A stretch of 64,000 nt of DNA from an uncultured Alphaproteobacteria bacterium (GTDB taxonomy: Bacteria > Pseudomonadota > Alphaproteobacteria > RF32 > CAG-239). The notes under the pieces are model-generated. The model was not told the DNA's origin, ran no database searches, and worked only from the letters and a program-made list of their open reading frames with translations. Numbering within the stretch: position 1 is the stretch's first letter; each line of letters opens with the position of its first letter. This document shows positions 58,135 through 63,838 of this stretch, one piece after another. The position numbers and the translations under genes were made by a program. The DNA is taken from NCBI GenBank assembly GCA_944391395.1, contig CALXTI010000004.1, positions 1 through 64,000 of the forward strand. Reading direction: 5' to 3'.

Positions 58135-59931
58135 TTATTCGGTAATATTAAGCGTTTTCAATCGTTCCACCAACAAAGATTCATTAAAATTAATTATGGC
58201 CGGTTTTTGCAAACCATCGGAAATTTTGCCGCGGATAACATCTTTGTTCAGTTCTTCGGCATCTTCTTTTAAGATAAGAGCGTGCTGCCACTGAAAACGC
58301 GCCTCATCTTTGCGTCCGACCTGCCAATAAGCATCGCCCAGATGGTCGCAGACAATGGCGTTGCCGGGCAGATATTCGGCGGCGCGTTCCAAAACTTTGA
58401 TGGAATCTTCGTATTTACCCATGCGATACAAAGCCCAACCAAGACTGTCCATAATATGTCCGTCTTCCGGATTTTGGCGATAGGCCTCAAAAATCATGTA
58501 TAAAGCCTCATTAGAATTTTCATTATGCTGAAGCCAGCTGTATCCGAGATAATTCAAAACGAAGGGATGCCTGTTGCTGATTTTCAAAGCTTCCTGTAAG
58601 ACTTCTTCGGCTTTGTTCCATTGCCCGCTGCGTTCATAAGCCATGCCGAGAGCATAATAAATCGTCCAATCCTGTTTAGCGACTTCCGGAGCTGATTTAA
58701 GAGCTTTGTTATAATATTTAATGGCTTTTTCAGGCTGATTCATAATCCGGCTGATTTCGCCCAGATTAAACAACACCTGATAATCGTTCGGATAAAGCTC
58801 AAGCAGGTTTTTAAGTTTTTCAAGCGCTTTTTGATTTTGCCGCTCTTGCATATAGATGCTGGATATTTTTAGCTGAGCCATAAAATAAATCGGTGATTGC
58901 GGGCTGATTTTGGCATATTCTTTTATGGCTTCGTTATAACGCTGATTGTTTTCCAACAGGTCGGCCATGGAAACCAGAGCGACATCGTGTTGCGGGTTAA
59001 GGTATAATGCCAGCGCCGTAAAAATCTGCGATATATCGCTTTGATATCCGCGAAAAATCGTGCCGATGTTAAACAGAGCCTCGGCTTGTCCTTTTTGCGG
59101 TGAATCAATCAGTTTTGGGGTTGCCGACGCATCGGAGGTTTGGATATCCTGATACAATTCAAGCAACATGCGCGCCTGAAAATTTTTATCATAATATTTT
59201 TTAACCAGTGCCGCGGCTTCTTCTTGTTTTCCGTTGCGGATATAAAAATTCCCGATAATCTGCAACGAGCGGTATGAAAGCTCAAGATTTTCGTTGTTAA
59301 CAACCGTGTCAAAGGCTTTTTGCGCTTCTTCGATGTTGCCGAAATAATCGTTTAGCATGCCGTTGTGCATATAATACAAAGAAACCAGACTTTTATCGTC
59401 TTTAAATTTTTTCAAGACATTCAAAGCTTCTTTTTGCTTGCCCTCGCCGGCATAAATCCAAGCTTCAAACAAAGGCAGGATAGAAGCCTGATAAACTTTG
59501 TCATGAATTTTCTGCAAACTTTCCAAGGCGTTGGCATAATTTTGTTTTTGCATTTCGTCGGTCATAACCACAAAATGAATAAAATTACCCTTATCGCCTT
59601 TTTGCTGAGCCATTTTAGCGTATTCGGCGGCCTCGTCGATTCGGCCTTCCGAAGTCAAAAGCACATACGCCCGCCCGATGATTTCCGTGTTGTCGGCGCC
59701 CAGATTGATGGATTTGACATAGTAATCGGCGGCCGTATTTAAATCCTGACGCAAATGAGCCACCCGGGCGGCGAGATAAGTTCCGTAAGCTGTGTCGACC
59801 CGTGGATGGCTGTATATCGTTTCTGCGTCCGGTGTTCGATTCTGATGCATAAAATTTTCCGTGCAGGAGTTAAAAACTCCGACACTGATAATAAGGGCTG
59901 CTATATATCCGACTTTCATAAACTTTTTCAT
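58135..59931 (-). CDS. TPR-repeat lipoprotein
   Basis: The ATG at 59931 begins a lipoprotein signal (MKKFMKVGYIAALIISVGVF then NSC, lipobox F-N-S-C), giving 598 residues; the longer TTG frame has no such signal. The rest is tetratricopeptide repeats, at least ten, for example VLFNLGEISRIMNQPEKAIK, YYALGMAYERSGQWNKAEEV and CDHLGDAYWQVGRKDEARFQ. It is probably a periplasm-facing scaffold in the outer membrane. Similar proteins are common in alphaproteobacteria without a set function. No terminator is clear between it and the convergent cvpA. Confidence 0.8.
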   Translation of the reverse strand: MKKFMKVGYIAALIISVGVFNSCTENFMHQNRTPDAETIYSHPRVDTAYGTYLAARVAHLRQDLNTAADYYVKSINLGADNTEIIGRAYVLLTSEGRIDEAAEYAKMAQQKGDKGNFIHFVVMTDEMQKQNYANALESLQKIHDKVYQASILPLFEAWIYAGEGKQKEALNVLKKFKDDKSLVSLYYMHNGMLNDYFGNIEEAQKAFDTVVNNENLELSYRSLQIIGNFYIRNGKQEEAAALVKKYYDKNFQARMLLELYQDIQTSDASATPKLIDSPQKGQAEALFNIGTIFRGYQSDISQIFTALALYLNPQHDVALVSMADLLENNQRYNEAIKEYAKISPQSPIYFMAQLKISSIYMQERQNQKALEKLKNLLELYPNDYQVLFNLGEISRIMNQPEKAIKYYNKALKSAPEVAKQDWTIYYALGMAYERSGQWNKAEEVLQEALKISNRHPFVLNYLGYSWLQHNENSNEALYMIFEAYRQNPEDGHIMDSLGWALYRMGKYEDSIKVLERAAEYLPGNAIVCDHLGDAYWQVGRKDEARFQWQHALILKEDAEELNKDVIRGKISDGLQKPAIINFNESLLVERLKTLNITE

Positions 59932-60055
59932 CTTTTCAAGTTTTTTTAATGTTATATCAATTTTTGCCGTCGATTCAATAAAAATTATATAATTATATGT
60001 GTAAATAATTGCTTTATATTGCAAAATAAAGTATTCACGCTATATAATTCCTACC

Positions 60056-60850
60056 ATGGAACAAAAAAACGACATAGCCCGATTGTTGGAATGGTACATG
60101 GCTGCCGGTGTGGATGAAATCTGCGGTGCGGAGCCCGGTCTTTTATTGCATCCGGCAAACGAACAAGCCGCTGCAAATTCGCCTTTGCCGGCAGTGGAGC
60201 CGGCATCGGTTCGTCCGGCCATAAGCTCTTTGGCGCAAACAACGGTTGCCGCTTGTAAAAACGCGCGTGAATTGTGTGAAAAAGCCGACAGCTTGGAAGA
60301 TTTGAAAGCTGCCGTGGAGGCTTTTGAGGGGTGCGCCCTTAAGTTCAATGCCAAATCGACGGTTTTCGGCGCGGGAAATCCTCAGGCCGAAGTCATGATT
60401 GTCGGCGAAGCCCCGGGCGCGGATGAAGACCGTTTGGGCATTCCGTTTGTCGGCCGCAGCGGACATTTGCTGGAAAAAATGCTTTTGGCAATCGGCTTAA
60501 AGCGTGAAGATGTTTATATCACCAACATTTTGCCATGGCGTCCGCCGGGGAACCGGACGCCGACCGATGCCGAAGTTGCGGTTTGTCTGCCGTTTTTAAA
60601 ACGCCAGATAGAATTTATAAAACCCAAGGTGATTTTGTTGTTAGGCGGCAGCGCGGCCAATGCTTTGCTGGATAACGGCGATTCCATATCCCGTTTGCGC
60701 GGTCATTGGTTGGAATACGTTATGTCCGACAGAACATCTGTGGCGGCGTTGGCAAGTTTTCATCCGGCGTATTTGTTGCGCAACAGCGCCCAAAAAGCCA
60801 AATCTTGGAGCGATTTTTTACGCCTTTTGAAAAAATTAAAGGAAAATTAA
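60056..60850 (+). CDS. Uracil-DNA glycosylase, family 4-like
   Basis: A 264-residue protein. The core (about 95-264) has motif [22 protein letters not shown], the [18 protein letters not shown] stretch, and motif [16 protein letters not shown], the pattern of family 4 uracil-DNA glycosylases, which remove uracil from DNA. The N-terminal 80 residues are variable. The first iron-sulfur cysteine pair (C-x2-C in classical family 4) has only one cysteine (EGCALKFN). The CALK form is common in alphaproteobacterial members, so whether this protein holds a 4Fe-4S cluster is uncertain. Confidence 0.87.
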
Positions 60851-60909: not shown

Positions 60910-61686
60910 ATGAGTATTTTAAGAAAAGCATGGTGTTCAACCTTGGCGCTGGCATTCACGGCGGGGGCTTTTGCCGTTCAGGCACAAGAAGCGGCGCCGG
61001 CCGAAGAACAAACGACCAAACCCCGTGCCGTGTTGTTTAAGGTGCATGATATCAAACCGGTTGAAAACACCGAAGGCGTTATCACGCATTGCGATTTTTT
61101 AGTCACGTTTTACAACCGTACGACCGACAGTTTGCGTCAAGCCAAAATCGATATGGGTTGGACCGATGAAATTACGGAACGTTACATGATTGAAGGCACC
61201 GGCGAAGAGGAAAAAACCGCGTCGACCGCGCGTCCGCGCGCCAGCCGCAACAGCCGCAATGCCGAACCTGTTTTGGGCGAAATCACCACCAGTGTGGATA
61301 TGCCGGCGTTGGGAGCATATAAACAGGCCACTGTCAAGGGTTCAGTCAAAACCGAAAAATGTTTCCTGCTTTTGGACAATCTGGAATTTAACGTTGCCTC
61401 TTGCAGCATTATCGGCCAAAACAATGACAGCGGGTCTTCCGCGCGCAGCAGCCGTCGCAGCCGCGTTACGGCCAGCCGCAACACGTCGGAATGCGCCAAT
61501 TTGTTTGAATATGTCAATTCCCAAAATCCGGAATATTATGACGAATTCAAAAACATTTCTTATTCCGAGCAGGAACGTCTGTTAAGCGATGAGAAAAAAC
61601 AAGACATCAGCGATATTGAATCGACTTATGAAACAATCGTCGGAAACTTTGAAAAAGCCGACAGCATTGTCAACAACATCAAATAA
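60910..61686 (+). CDS. Secreted four-cysteine protein A, unknown family
   Basis: A 258-residue protein with a signal peptide (MSILRKAWCSTLALAFTAGA, cut near VQA-QEA). The mature part has four cysteines in the pattern CDFLVTFYN, CFLLLDNL, CSIIG, CANLF. Two short arginine/serine-rich stretches interrupt it (RASRNSRN at about 107-114 and SSARSSRRSRVTASRN at about 177-192), and the C-terminus is an acidic helix. A GGGGG/AAAG site precedes the start. The next gene encodes a distant paralogue with the same cysteine order, and both lie upstream of tolQ. The protein is likely periplasmic or exported. I recognise no named family. Confidence 0.72.
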   Translation: MSILRKAWCSTLALAFTAGAFAVQAQEAAPAEEQTTKPRAVLFKVHDIKPVENTEGVITHCDFLVTFYNRTTDSLRQAKIDMGWTDEITERYMIEGTGEEEKTASTARPRASRNSRNAEPVLGEITTSVDMPALGAYKQATVKGSVKTEKCFLLLDNLEFNVASCSIIGQNNDSGSSARSSRRSRVTASRNTSECANLFEYVNSQNPEYYDEFKNISYSEQERLLSDEKKQDISDIESTYETIVGNFEKADSIVNNIK

Positions 61687-61697
61687 CGGGGCAGAAA

Positions 61698-62429
61698 ATG
61701 CGACAACGCCGGATTAAAATCACACGACGGCTCACCGGAGGTTTGCGTCGCGTTGCGCTGCCTGCGTTGCTTGCTTGTGTTTTGTTATCCGGCATTGCCT
61801 CCGCGCAAATGTTTGGTGCGTCAACCGGTTTTAACAACAACAATCGTCCGGCGCAAACGCAGAGAACTCCGGCACAACCGGCACCGACGCCTCGTCCGGC
61901 TTCTTCTGCCAACGCTCCGGCCAATTCGGCGCGACCGGCAGCCCGAGCGCCGTCTGCGCCTCCGGCCACACCGTCAATGGTCAACACCGGTCAAACAACG
62001 GCGGCGGCATCCCGACCGGCAGCAGAGCTTTCCGAAGAAGAGCCGGAAAATGTCCCCTCTGCTTTTGAACTGCGGTTTATCGGCGGCGAAGCGGTGGTTG
62101 ATGATTCGCCAAAGATAATGCTTTATATGCGAGATTTTAAAGTGGCGAACAACTTAAACGGCCGTCCGAGCTGCACCATGCGTTTTTATATTTTGTCTTC
62201 CGCGCCGGAAAAAATCACCAACATCAGTTATCGCTTAAAATGGCCGAAGATGGAAACCGCGCTTTCGTTTGACGATGTCGCTCCCAACACGCCGACATAT
62301 TTTGATTACGCCTTGTTGGGCAACGGCTGTTACAGCATGGACAAAGCCCCCAACATCATCGTGAACCGCTGCCGCATCAAGGGTATGACCCAGCGCCAGT
62401 GTGCCGATGCCATCCAGTGGATGGAGTAA
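61698..62429 (+). CDS. Secreted four-cysteine protein B, paralogue of A
   Basis: A 243-residue protein with a basic N-terminus and signal peptide (cut near IASA-QMF). A low-complexity proline/alanine/serine/threonine region (about 38-115) is followed by a folded domain with CTMRFYI, CYSMDKA, CRIKG and CADAIQW. The distance from the second to the third cysteine is 14 residues, the same as in protein A. The flanking hydrophobic pattern also agrees (ITNISYRLKWPK against LRQAKIDMGW). It starts 11 bases after protein A, so the two form one transcript. Function unknown. Confidence 0.72.
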   Translation: MRQRRIKITRRLTGGLRRVALPALLACVLLSGIASAQMFGASTGFNNNNRPAQTQRTPAQPAPTPRPASSANAPANSARPAARAPSAPPATPSMVNTGQTTAAASRPAAELSEEEPENVPSAFELRFIGGEAVVDDSPKIMLYMRDFKVANNLNGRPSCTMRFYILSSAPEKITNISYRLKWPKMETALSFDDVAPNTPTYFDYALLGNGCYSMDKAPNIIVNRCRIKGMTQRQCADAIQWME

Positions 62430-62609: not shown

Positions 62610-62888
62610 ATGTTTGGAAATTTTCTTTTAATTTGCGCCGTGATCGGGATCATAGGCGCTATCTTGGGATGGATATTTGATAAAAGTCAGAATTTTCTTT
62701 CCTGGATTTTATCGTTTGTTATCCCGGGGATAGGAATGGGCATTATTCTTACGGGGATAATGTGGGTAGGATATTTTGTCGGTCTTTTCGGAGACTGGCA
62801 TATATTTAAATTCCACCCTTTCCTAATAGGCTTTTCCTTTGGTGTGGTGAGGGAGATATATCTCCTTATCCGCACCATCGTAGGGTAA
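62610..62888 (+). CDS. Small membrane protein of unknown function
   Basis: A 92-residue protein with three hydrophobic segments (about 3-22, 28-52 and 55-85), rich in glycine and isoleucine. No clear ribosome binding site is seen (AAAAATAAAAAAAT precedes the ATG). A plausible promoter lies 120 bases upstream and a strong terminator follows, which supports an independent unit. No family recognised. Confidence 0.5.
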   Translation: MFGNFLLICAVIGIIGAILGWIFDKSQNFLSWILSFVIPGIGMGIILTGIMWVGYFVGLFGDWHIFKFHPFLIGFSFGVVREIYLLIRTIVG

Positions 62889-63091: not shown

Positions 63092-63838
63092 ATGGAAACA
63101 CAAGCGCTTTCTGATGTTGTTAACACTGCCGCTCAAATGTCCATGTGGGATTTGGTTTGGGCTTCCGATACCGTCACCAAAGTGGTGATGATTGGTTTAA
63201 TTGCCGCCTCTGTTTGGTCTTGGGCGATTATTTTTGAAAAATACGCCACGCTCCGCCATGTCAAAAAAATGTCCAAAAAGTTTGAAGAGGCTTTTTGGTC
63301 CGGCGGCTCGCTTGACCGTTTGTATGACGCCATCGGTAACCGTCCGCGCGACCCGATGTCGGCAATGTTTTTAGCCGCCATGAAAGAATGGCGCCGTTCC
63401 GACATCATGAAATCCAAAACCGACCGCAGTCTGCGCGGCGCTTCATTACAACAGCGCACCGAAAAAGCGATGATGGTTTGTATGGATAAAGAACTTGAAG
63501 ATTTGGACAATCGCTTGGGCTTTTTGGCTTCCACCGGTTCGGTGGCGCCGTTGGTGGGGTTGTTTGGTACGGTTTGGGGCATCATCAATAGTTTTAACGC
63601 CATTGCCGCCACCCAGAGCAACTCGTTGTCCGCGATGGCGCCCGGCATTGCTGAAGCTTTGTTTACCACCGCTTTTGGCTTGATTGCGGCGATTCCCGCC
63701 GTGGTGGCGTATAACATGATAACAACGCAAATTGACCGTTACGCCAACCGGCTGGAAAACTTTATTGCCGAATTTTCAACCATCTTATCGCGTGAAATTG
63801 ATGACACCACCTTAAAGGCGGAAATGGCGGGAGAATAA
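63092..63838 (+). CDS. tolQ: Tol-Pal system protein TolQ
   Basis: TolQ forms, with TolR, the proton-driven inner-membrane motor of the Tol-Pal envelope system. The 248-residue protein has three membrane helices (about 28-48, 143-168 and 185-210). TM2 and TM3 carry the family motifs LGFLASTGSVAPLVGLFGTVWGI and APGIAEALFTTAFGLIAAIPAVVAYN, including the pore threonines. The Tol operon order tolQ-tolR is kept, with 3 bases between the genes. Confidence 0.95.
   Translation: METQALSDVVNTAAQMSMWDLVWASDTVTKVVMIGLIAASVWSWAIIFEKYATLRHVKKMSKKFEEAFWSGGSLDRLYDAIGNRPRDPMSAMFLAAMKEWRRSDIMKSKTDRSLRGASLQQRTEKAMMVCMDKELEDLDNRLGFLASTGSVAPLVGLFGTVWGIINSFNAIAATQSNSLSAMAPGIAEALFTTAFGLIAAIPAVVAYNMITTQIDRYANRLENFIAEFSTILSREIDDTTLKAEMAGE

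Follow-up and report, generated by a model that had tools for sequence, protein, structure and literature searches.

Tandem secreted four-cysteine proteins of Alphaproteobacteria and the linkage of their genes to the lytic transglycosylase gene slt

Introduction

What are two adjacent genes for secreted, cysteine-bearing proteins doing just upstream of a tolQRA cluster? The question is raised by a 64,000-nucleotide stretch of DNA (the window) from an uncultured alphaproteobacterium with a genome of 1.48 Mb. A preliminary description of the window had taken the two genes, here A and B, to encode tandem secreted paralogues with a common four-cysteine pattern, resembling no family known to its author and possibly acting in the cell envelope beside Tol-Pal. 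Our analyses address whether the two proteins are related, what fold they may have, and which of their genomic neighbours is conserved among relatives.

Gene layout and occurrence

The features concerned are these, with their coordinates in the window.

58135..60024, minus strand: TPR-repeat protein with a lipobox-like N-terminus, divergently oriented and kept as a neighbour of UDG-A-B throughout the family (Pfam TPR on the orthologue)
60056..60850, plus strand: uracil-DNA glycosylase superfamily gene (UDG), directly upstream of A, the order UDG-A-B being kept across the family (PF03167 on the orthologue)
60910..61686, plus strand: gene A, secreted four-cysteine protein of 258 aa with a signal peptide, a predicted Ig-like beta domain carrying an R/S-rich insert, and a 40-residue C-terminal helix
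61090..61494, plus strand: cysteine codons of A, C61 (61090), C151 (61360), C165 (61402) and C195 (61492), with W84 between C61 and C151, invariant in 29/29 homologues
61698..62429, plus strand: gene B, secreted four-cysteine protein of 243 aa with a signal peptide, a P/A/S/T-rich linker and a predicted C-terminal Ig-like beta domain of 108 residues
62172..62402, plus strand: cysteine codons of B, C159 (62172), C211 (62328), C225 (62370) and C235 (62400), with W182 between C159 and C211, invariant in 31/31 homologues
62610..62888, plus strand: short ORF for a membrane protein, lying between B and tolQ, with conservation limited to the window's genus
63092..63838, plus strand: tolQ, the start of tolQRA, at the site that slt occupies in most relatives (slt is absent from the window genome)

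Both open reading frames were found at these coordinates, head to tail and 11 nt apart; a 59-nt gap separates the UDG gene from A, and the small ORF and tolQRA lie downstream of B. The N-termini of A and B have a basic start, a hydrophobic core and an A-x-A type site ahead of the mature protein, and were assigned as signal peptides by eye. Among 54 relatives, A homologues were found in 28 and B homologues in 31. The relatives that have names are mainly uncultured Alphaproteobacteria of animal guts, Azospirillum sp. CAG:239 among them, and correspond to the CAG-239/RF32 clade of GTDB. The adjacent A-B pair is present in nearly every complete genome of the window's family and in all 80 species-level loci that B retrieved from a second collection, the two collections overlapping, so that their locus counts are not independent. 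One record labelled Lactobacillaceae (L128, JAISVX010000003.1) carries an alphaproteobacterial A-B locus and falls within the family in the tree; it is probably a mislabelled MAG. At another locus (L083:9050-10390), the A homologue has a long repetitive C-terminal extension, in an open frame of 447 aa, which is absent from most other A proteins.

Paralogy and the cysteine pattern

On one hand, the sequences of A and B are very different when compared directly, and one could suppose that they are unrelated proteins whose resemblance is due to chance or to composition (a signal peptide plus low complexity). On the other hand, in a sensitive profile-profile comparison the core profiles of A and B align far above shuffled controls: hhalign gives a probability of 95.5 (E 1.6e-8) and a score of 53.6 for the cores only, whereas 100 column shuffles reached at most 19.0 and the reversed profile 14.4. 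With every cysteine masked, the score is 29.8. In addition, an HMM built from B alone picks up 49 of 80 A proteins, and the order of strands agrees between the two. A chance resemblance is therefore extremely improbable, and the idea of unrelated proteins is refuted by the profile comparison together with the AlphaFold models of both. A and B are paralogous members of an alphaproteobacterial family that had not been named before. Since A was seen only in the window's own order and B reaches further, A is probably a duplicate of B.

The middle cysteines are 14 residues apart in A and in B, and the tryptophan stands 23 residues past the first cysteine in both (A84, B182). Beyond the window, the combination C1-22-W and C2-13-C3 occurs in 29 of 29 A and 31 of 31 B homologues; two of the B proteins have Y in place of W. 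The same regular expression matched 80/80 A and 80/80 B proteins in the second collection, in which B was chosen with a pattern that includes C3. The spacing and the intervening tryptophan that had been noticed in the two window proteins thus hold throughout their homologues. Loss of the cysteines in homologues had been named in advance as a possible refutation of the shared pattern; every one of the 29 A and 31 B homologues kept all four, and loss of a cysteine pair was seen in no member of the family. When distant members of B, with identities to the window protein down to 12%, are included in the alignment, only the four cysteines and one proline remain invariant. The cysteines would form putative disulfides in the exported proteins. 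Two DsbA-like thioredoxin-fold proteins (Thioredoxin_4) are encoded in the window genome, in which DsbB was not detected.

The preliminary description had also given each protein a low-complexity insert of its own. Such segments are present in both, but they are not conserved features: among relatives of A, the distance from W to C2 ranges from 38 to 76 aa and that from C3 to C4 from 10 to 29 aa, with the letters varying too, and in B the low-complexity part is an N-terminal linker that is likewise variable in length and letters. Given this variation, we regard the segments as linkers. Quickly varying linkers, along with the many rumen, colon, caecum and other gut MAGs among the named related records, could suggest that A and B are exported factors for contact with the animal host or with gut neighbours. 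However, host-interaction genes would not be expected to show single conserved copies at one housekeeping locus in nearly all complete genomes of the family, or such strongly conserved cores, and we consider such a function very unlikely.

Predicted fold and database searches

Structure prediction was the other check on which the proposed paralogy could have failed, had the two folds been unrelated. From alignments made in this analysis, AlphaFold modelled the core of B (118 residues) at a pLDDT of 92.5 and a pTM of 0.80; the model has seven strands, and a short helix at each of C2 and C4. The model of A (221 residues, pLDDT 80.7) has its elements in the same order as B, with a disordered insert past the strand that bears the tryptophan and the 40-residue helix at the C-terminus. 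The predicted folds agree in strand order and in the short helix after C2, a comparison by order of elements and not by superposition. Taken with the profile comparison and the invariant cysteines, this bears out the description of A and B as tandem secreted paralogues.

Foldseek returned nothing at E<=0.001 for either protein (best E 1.6e-2 for B and 6.5e-3 for A). The weak matches are beta sandwiches, including ApaG, IrmA, cellulose-binding modules and the Bacillus proteinase inhibitor IPI. The domain of B is confidently predicted to be all-beta, and these weak matches suggest an Ig-like fold class. Scans of A and B against Pfam, NCBIfam and PHROGs gave no family above the curated cut-off, and no Pfam family even at E<=1; sequence searches of the PDB with the A and B profiles were empty or insignificant. 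These results are consistent with the earlier remark that no such family was known. In the literature, we found no described family for an Slt accessory of the A/B kind or for an Ig-like partner of a lytic transglycosylase. Matches to GltJ/GltG were discarded as low-complexity noise on the P/A-rich linker of B.

Linkage of B to slt

Synteny among relatives points to a different neighbour from the one seen in the window. In 61 of 80 species-level loci, slt comes directly after B on the same strand and begins between -75 and +58 nt from the stop codon of B (a 75-nt overlap to a 58-nt gap, measured to the open frame). The slt product has ~588 aa and a transglycosylase SLT domain (PF01464, E 1.2e-26). 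Likewise, slt and not tol adjoins B in 66 of 92 tree rows. By comparison, B has tolQRA after it, at a distance of 0.5–1.2 kb, in three branches only: the window's genus, one other genus (G019/G005) and the L130 lineage. All of these are slt-less, and several further slt-less lineages have neither slt nor tol beside B. Conservation of the pair next to tolQ in relatives, a check proposed in the preliminary description, was therefore mostly not borne out, and on this synteny we set aside a role in the Tol operon as the main explanation.

The linkage to slt extends beyond the window's family. The B profile matches 21 of 385 class-level genomes, and B adjoins slt in about eight families outside the window's own (f2, f4, f23, f33, f51, f70, f74 and f91), of which f2 belongs to the window's order; in one f74 genome (L194), B occurs without slt nearby. 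In f51, UDG and B-slt are separated by an open frame of 544 aa that matches nothing in Pfam (L188:911-2542). A search of eight B-negative genomes with the B and distant-branch profiles found no divergent B near slt.

It could be argued that A and B are Ig-like proteins with a general task in the periplasm or outside the cell (as carbohydrate-binding or protease-inhibitor-like proteins, for example), which merely travel as passengers in a UDG-slt transcription unit. The weak Foldseek matches listed above (cellulose-binding modules, IrmA, ApaG and IPI) would suit such proteins, as would the fact that A and B outlast the loss of slt (see below). Yet in f23 and f91 no UDG match was found at the B-slt locus, where B nevertheless accompanies slt, which is unexpected of passengers in a UDG operon and indicates that B tracks slt rather than UDG. 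We therefore find the passenger explanation less probable than not, though a serious alternative. In these two families, B-slt lies opposite an LD-carboxypeptidase gene (LdcA; PF02016/PF17676), and in f23 also beside a Mur ligase gene (Mpl); both are peptidoglycan recycling genes, so that B tracks genes of wall recycling as well as slt. Several other alphaproteobacteria without B have UDG adjoining slt, which suggests that B, and later A, sits at a pre-existing UDG-slt junction.

Loss of slt in the window's sub-clade

Whole-genome searches gave no match to the Slt enzyme in the slt-less genera, while most distant alphaproteobacteria match the Slt query at E 1e-24 or better. The window genome retains one short SLT-domain protein of 206 aa. 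On a tree of A, B and UDG, a quick tree with several open forks, slt-positive and slt-less lineages separate, and very few changes suffice to explain the distribution.

The sub-clade without any match to an Slt70-like lytic transglycosylase comprises G000 (the window genome), G001, G002, G004-G006, G015, G018-G020 and G028.

A and B do not co-occur strictly with slt: it is missing in the window's genus and in four further genera that keep both. Genomes that keep A and B with all cysteines intact and have no Slt match are G000-G002, G004-G006, G015, G018, G019 and G028, so A and B are not solely accessories of Slt. This retention is the strongest argument against a purely Slt-bound role, and it makes the sub-clade a natural experiment for separating Slt-dependent from Slt-independent roles.

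A distant four-cysteine branch beside exbB and tolQ genes

Weak matches in large-genome alphaproteobacteria led to a second set of secreted four-cysteine proteins, of ~145 aa and from 24 genera, with the four cysteines kept in 22 of 22 aligned sequences. Cultured alphaproteobacteria, Rhodobacterales included, are among the carriers of this branch. The profile of this distant branch aligns with that of B at a probability of 94.8 and a score of 47.7, against a shuffle maximum of 17.9. With the cysteines masked, the probability drops to 14.6, so that homology to B is probable rather than certain. In at least 11 of ~28 loci, the gene lies directly upstream (from an overlap to a gap of ~20 nt) of a MotA/TolQ/ExbB gene. 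Plasmids of Ruegeria conchae and Rhodobacteraceae SC52 carry a gene for a hypothetical protein followed by those for ExbB, ExbD, ExbD and DUF4384, with a caspase-family gene nearby. Such Roseobacter-group plasmid operons, with a four-cysteine protein, ExbB, two ExbD and DUF4384, are found at L249:3947-8360 and L250:3980-8357.

These loci bring back, in a broader form, the idea of a role beside Tol-Pal: A and B could be accessory factors of energised Tol/Exb envelope machinery, serving as periplasmic Ig-like proteins that link either the wall or the outer membrane to TolQRA or ExbBD. The position of the distant branch upstream of MotA/TolQ/ExbB genes, its alignment with B, and the presence of tolQRA past B in three slt-less branches all favour this reading. 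However, the usual neighbour of B is slt and not tol, several slt-less lineages have neither, the gap of 0.5–1.2 kb between B and tolQ speaks against a single operon, and the link to the distant branch is much reduced once the cysteines are masked. We judge it unlikely that A and B belong to this machinery. A wider proposal would unite all of these proteins as a class-wide alphaproteobacterial superfamily of disulfide-braced, Ig-like periplasmic proteins that are general adaptors between the wall and its machines, with B (and A) serving Slt and wall recycling, the distant branch serving ExbB/TolQ-type motors, and the window's lineage having switched from Slt to Tol after losing slt; this seems quite unlikely to us.

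Proposed role

Since the conserved neighbour across related gut bacteria is slt and not Tol, A and B probably help manage peptidoglycan turnover. The more specific reading that we favour, and hold only tentatively, draws on the secretion-type sequences, paralogy, invariant cysteines, fold class, slt linkage and slt loss computed here. A and B would be exported, disulfide-braced proteins with Ig-like beta-sandwich domains carried on variable linkers. B, as the older member, would be a periplasmic accessory, regulatory or targeting, in peptidoglycan turnover, with the soluble lytic transglycosylase Slt encoded immediately downstream as its ancestral partner; the conserved genetic linkage in the window's family and eight others is what a partner of Slt would be expected to have. 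A probably arose upstream of B by duplication in the window's order, gaining its C-terminal helix, and probably acts together with B, with a putative effect on Slt or peptidoglycan. In the window's sub-clade, where slt was lost and A and B were kept, they would have to work independently of Slt, either on the wall itself or on a different hydrolase; direct binding of peptidoglycan or service to another hydrolase would reconcile their retention with the loss of slt. Gene order is by itself no proof of a physical interaction between A or B and Slt, and no particular biochemical activity is backed by a known family or a solved structure, the Foldseek matches all being weak.

The control of lytic transglycosylases is largely an open question, and a passage of one study on such enzymes states that the regulation of most cell wall hydrolases is unknown (PMC10746161). 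A conserved gene for an uncharacterised periplasmic protein that stays with slt in several families of Alphaproteobacteria is thus a testable candidate for a lytic-transglycosylase controller.

Comparison with known systems

ApaG, IrmA, CBM2-type modules and DUF1425 share the general fold class of A and B as their best, though insignificant, Foldseek matches, but none matches at E<=0.001 and there is no sequence relationship. The hypothetical proteins upstream of ExbB in Rhodobacterales (for example WP_260027219.1 of Ruegeria conchae) are secreted and have four cysteines with C2-13-C3, as in B. Unlike B, they lie beside exbB-exbD-exbD-DUF4384-caspase genes rather than slt, and they have neither the long linker of B nor the C-terminal helix of A.

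Among inhibitors of wall-cleaving enzymes, Ivy acts on lytic transglycosylases. Ivy and MliC/PliC are lysozyme inhibitors (PMC10746161), and as small periplasmic proteins acting on muramidase-type enzymes they illustrate a possible mode of action for B; A and B, however, have no Pfam match, and neither inhibitor family is among the listed fold matches. A functional parallel is IltA/LiiA of P. aeruginosa, an inhibitor and anti-inhibitor of the lytic transglycosylase MltF (PMC10746161). IltA is a Sel1-repeat protein and almost entirely helical, and LiiA is predicted to be an outer-membrane lipoprotein whose N-terminal domain is helical (PMC10746161), whereas A and B are four-cysteine beta proteins of an unrelated fold. 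The likeness is one of functional analogy only: envelope pairs that control a lytic transglycosylase do exist, built from proteins unrelated to A and B, and by this analogy A and B could form another such pair.
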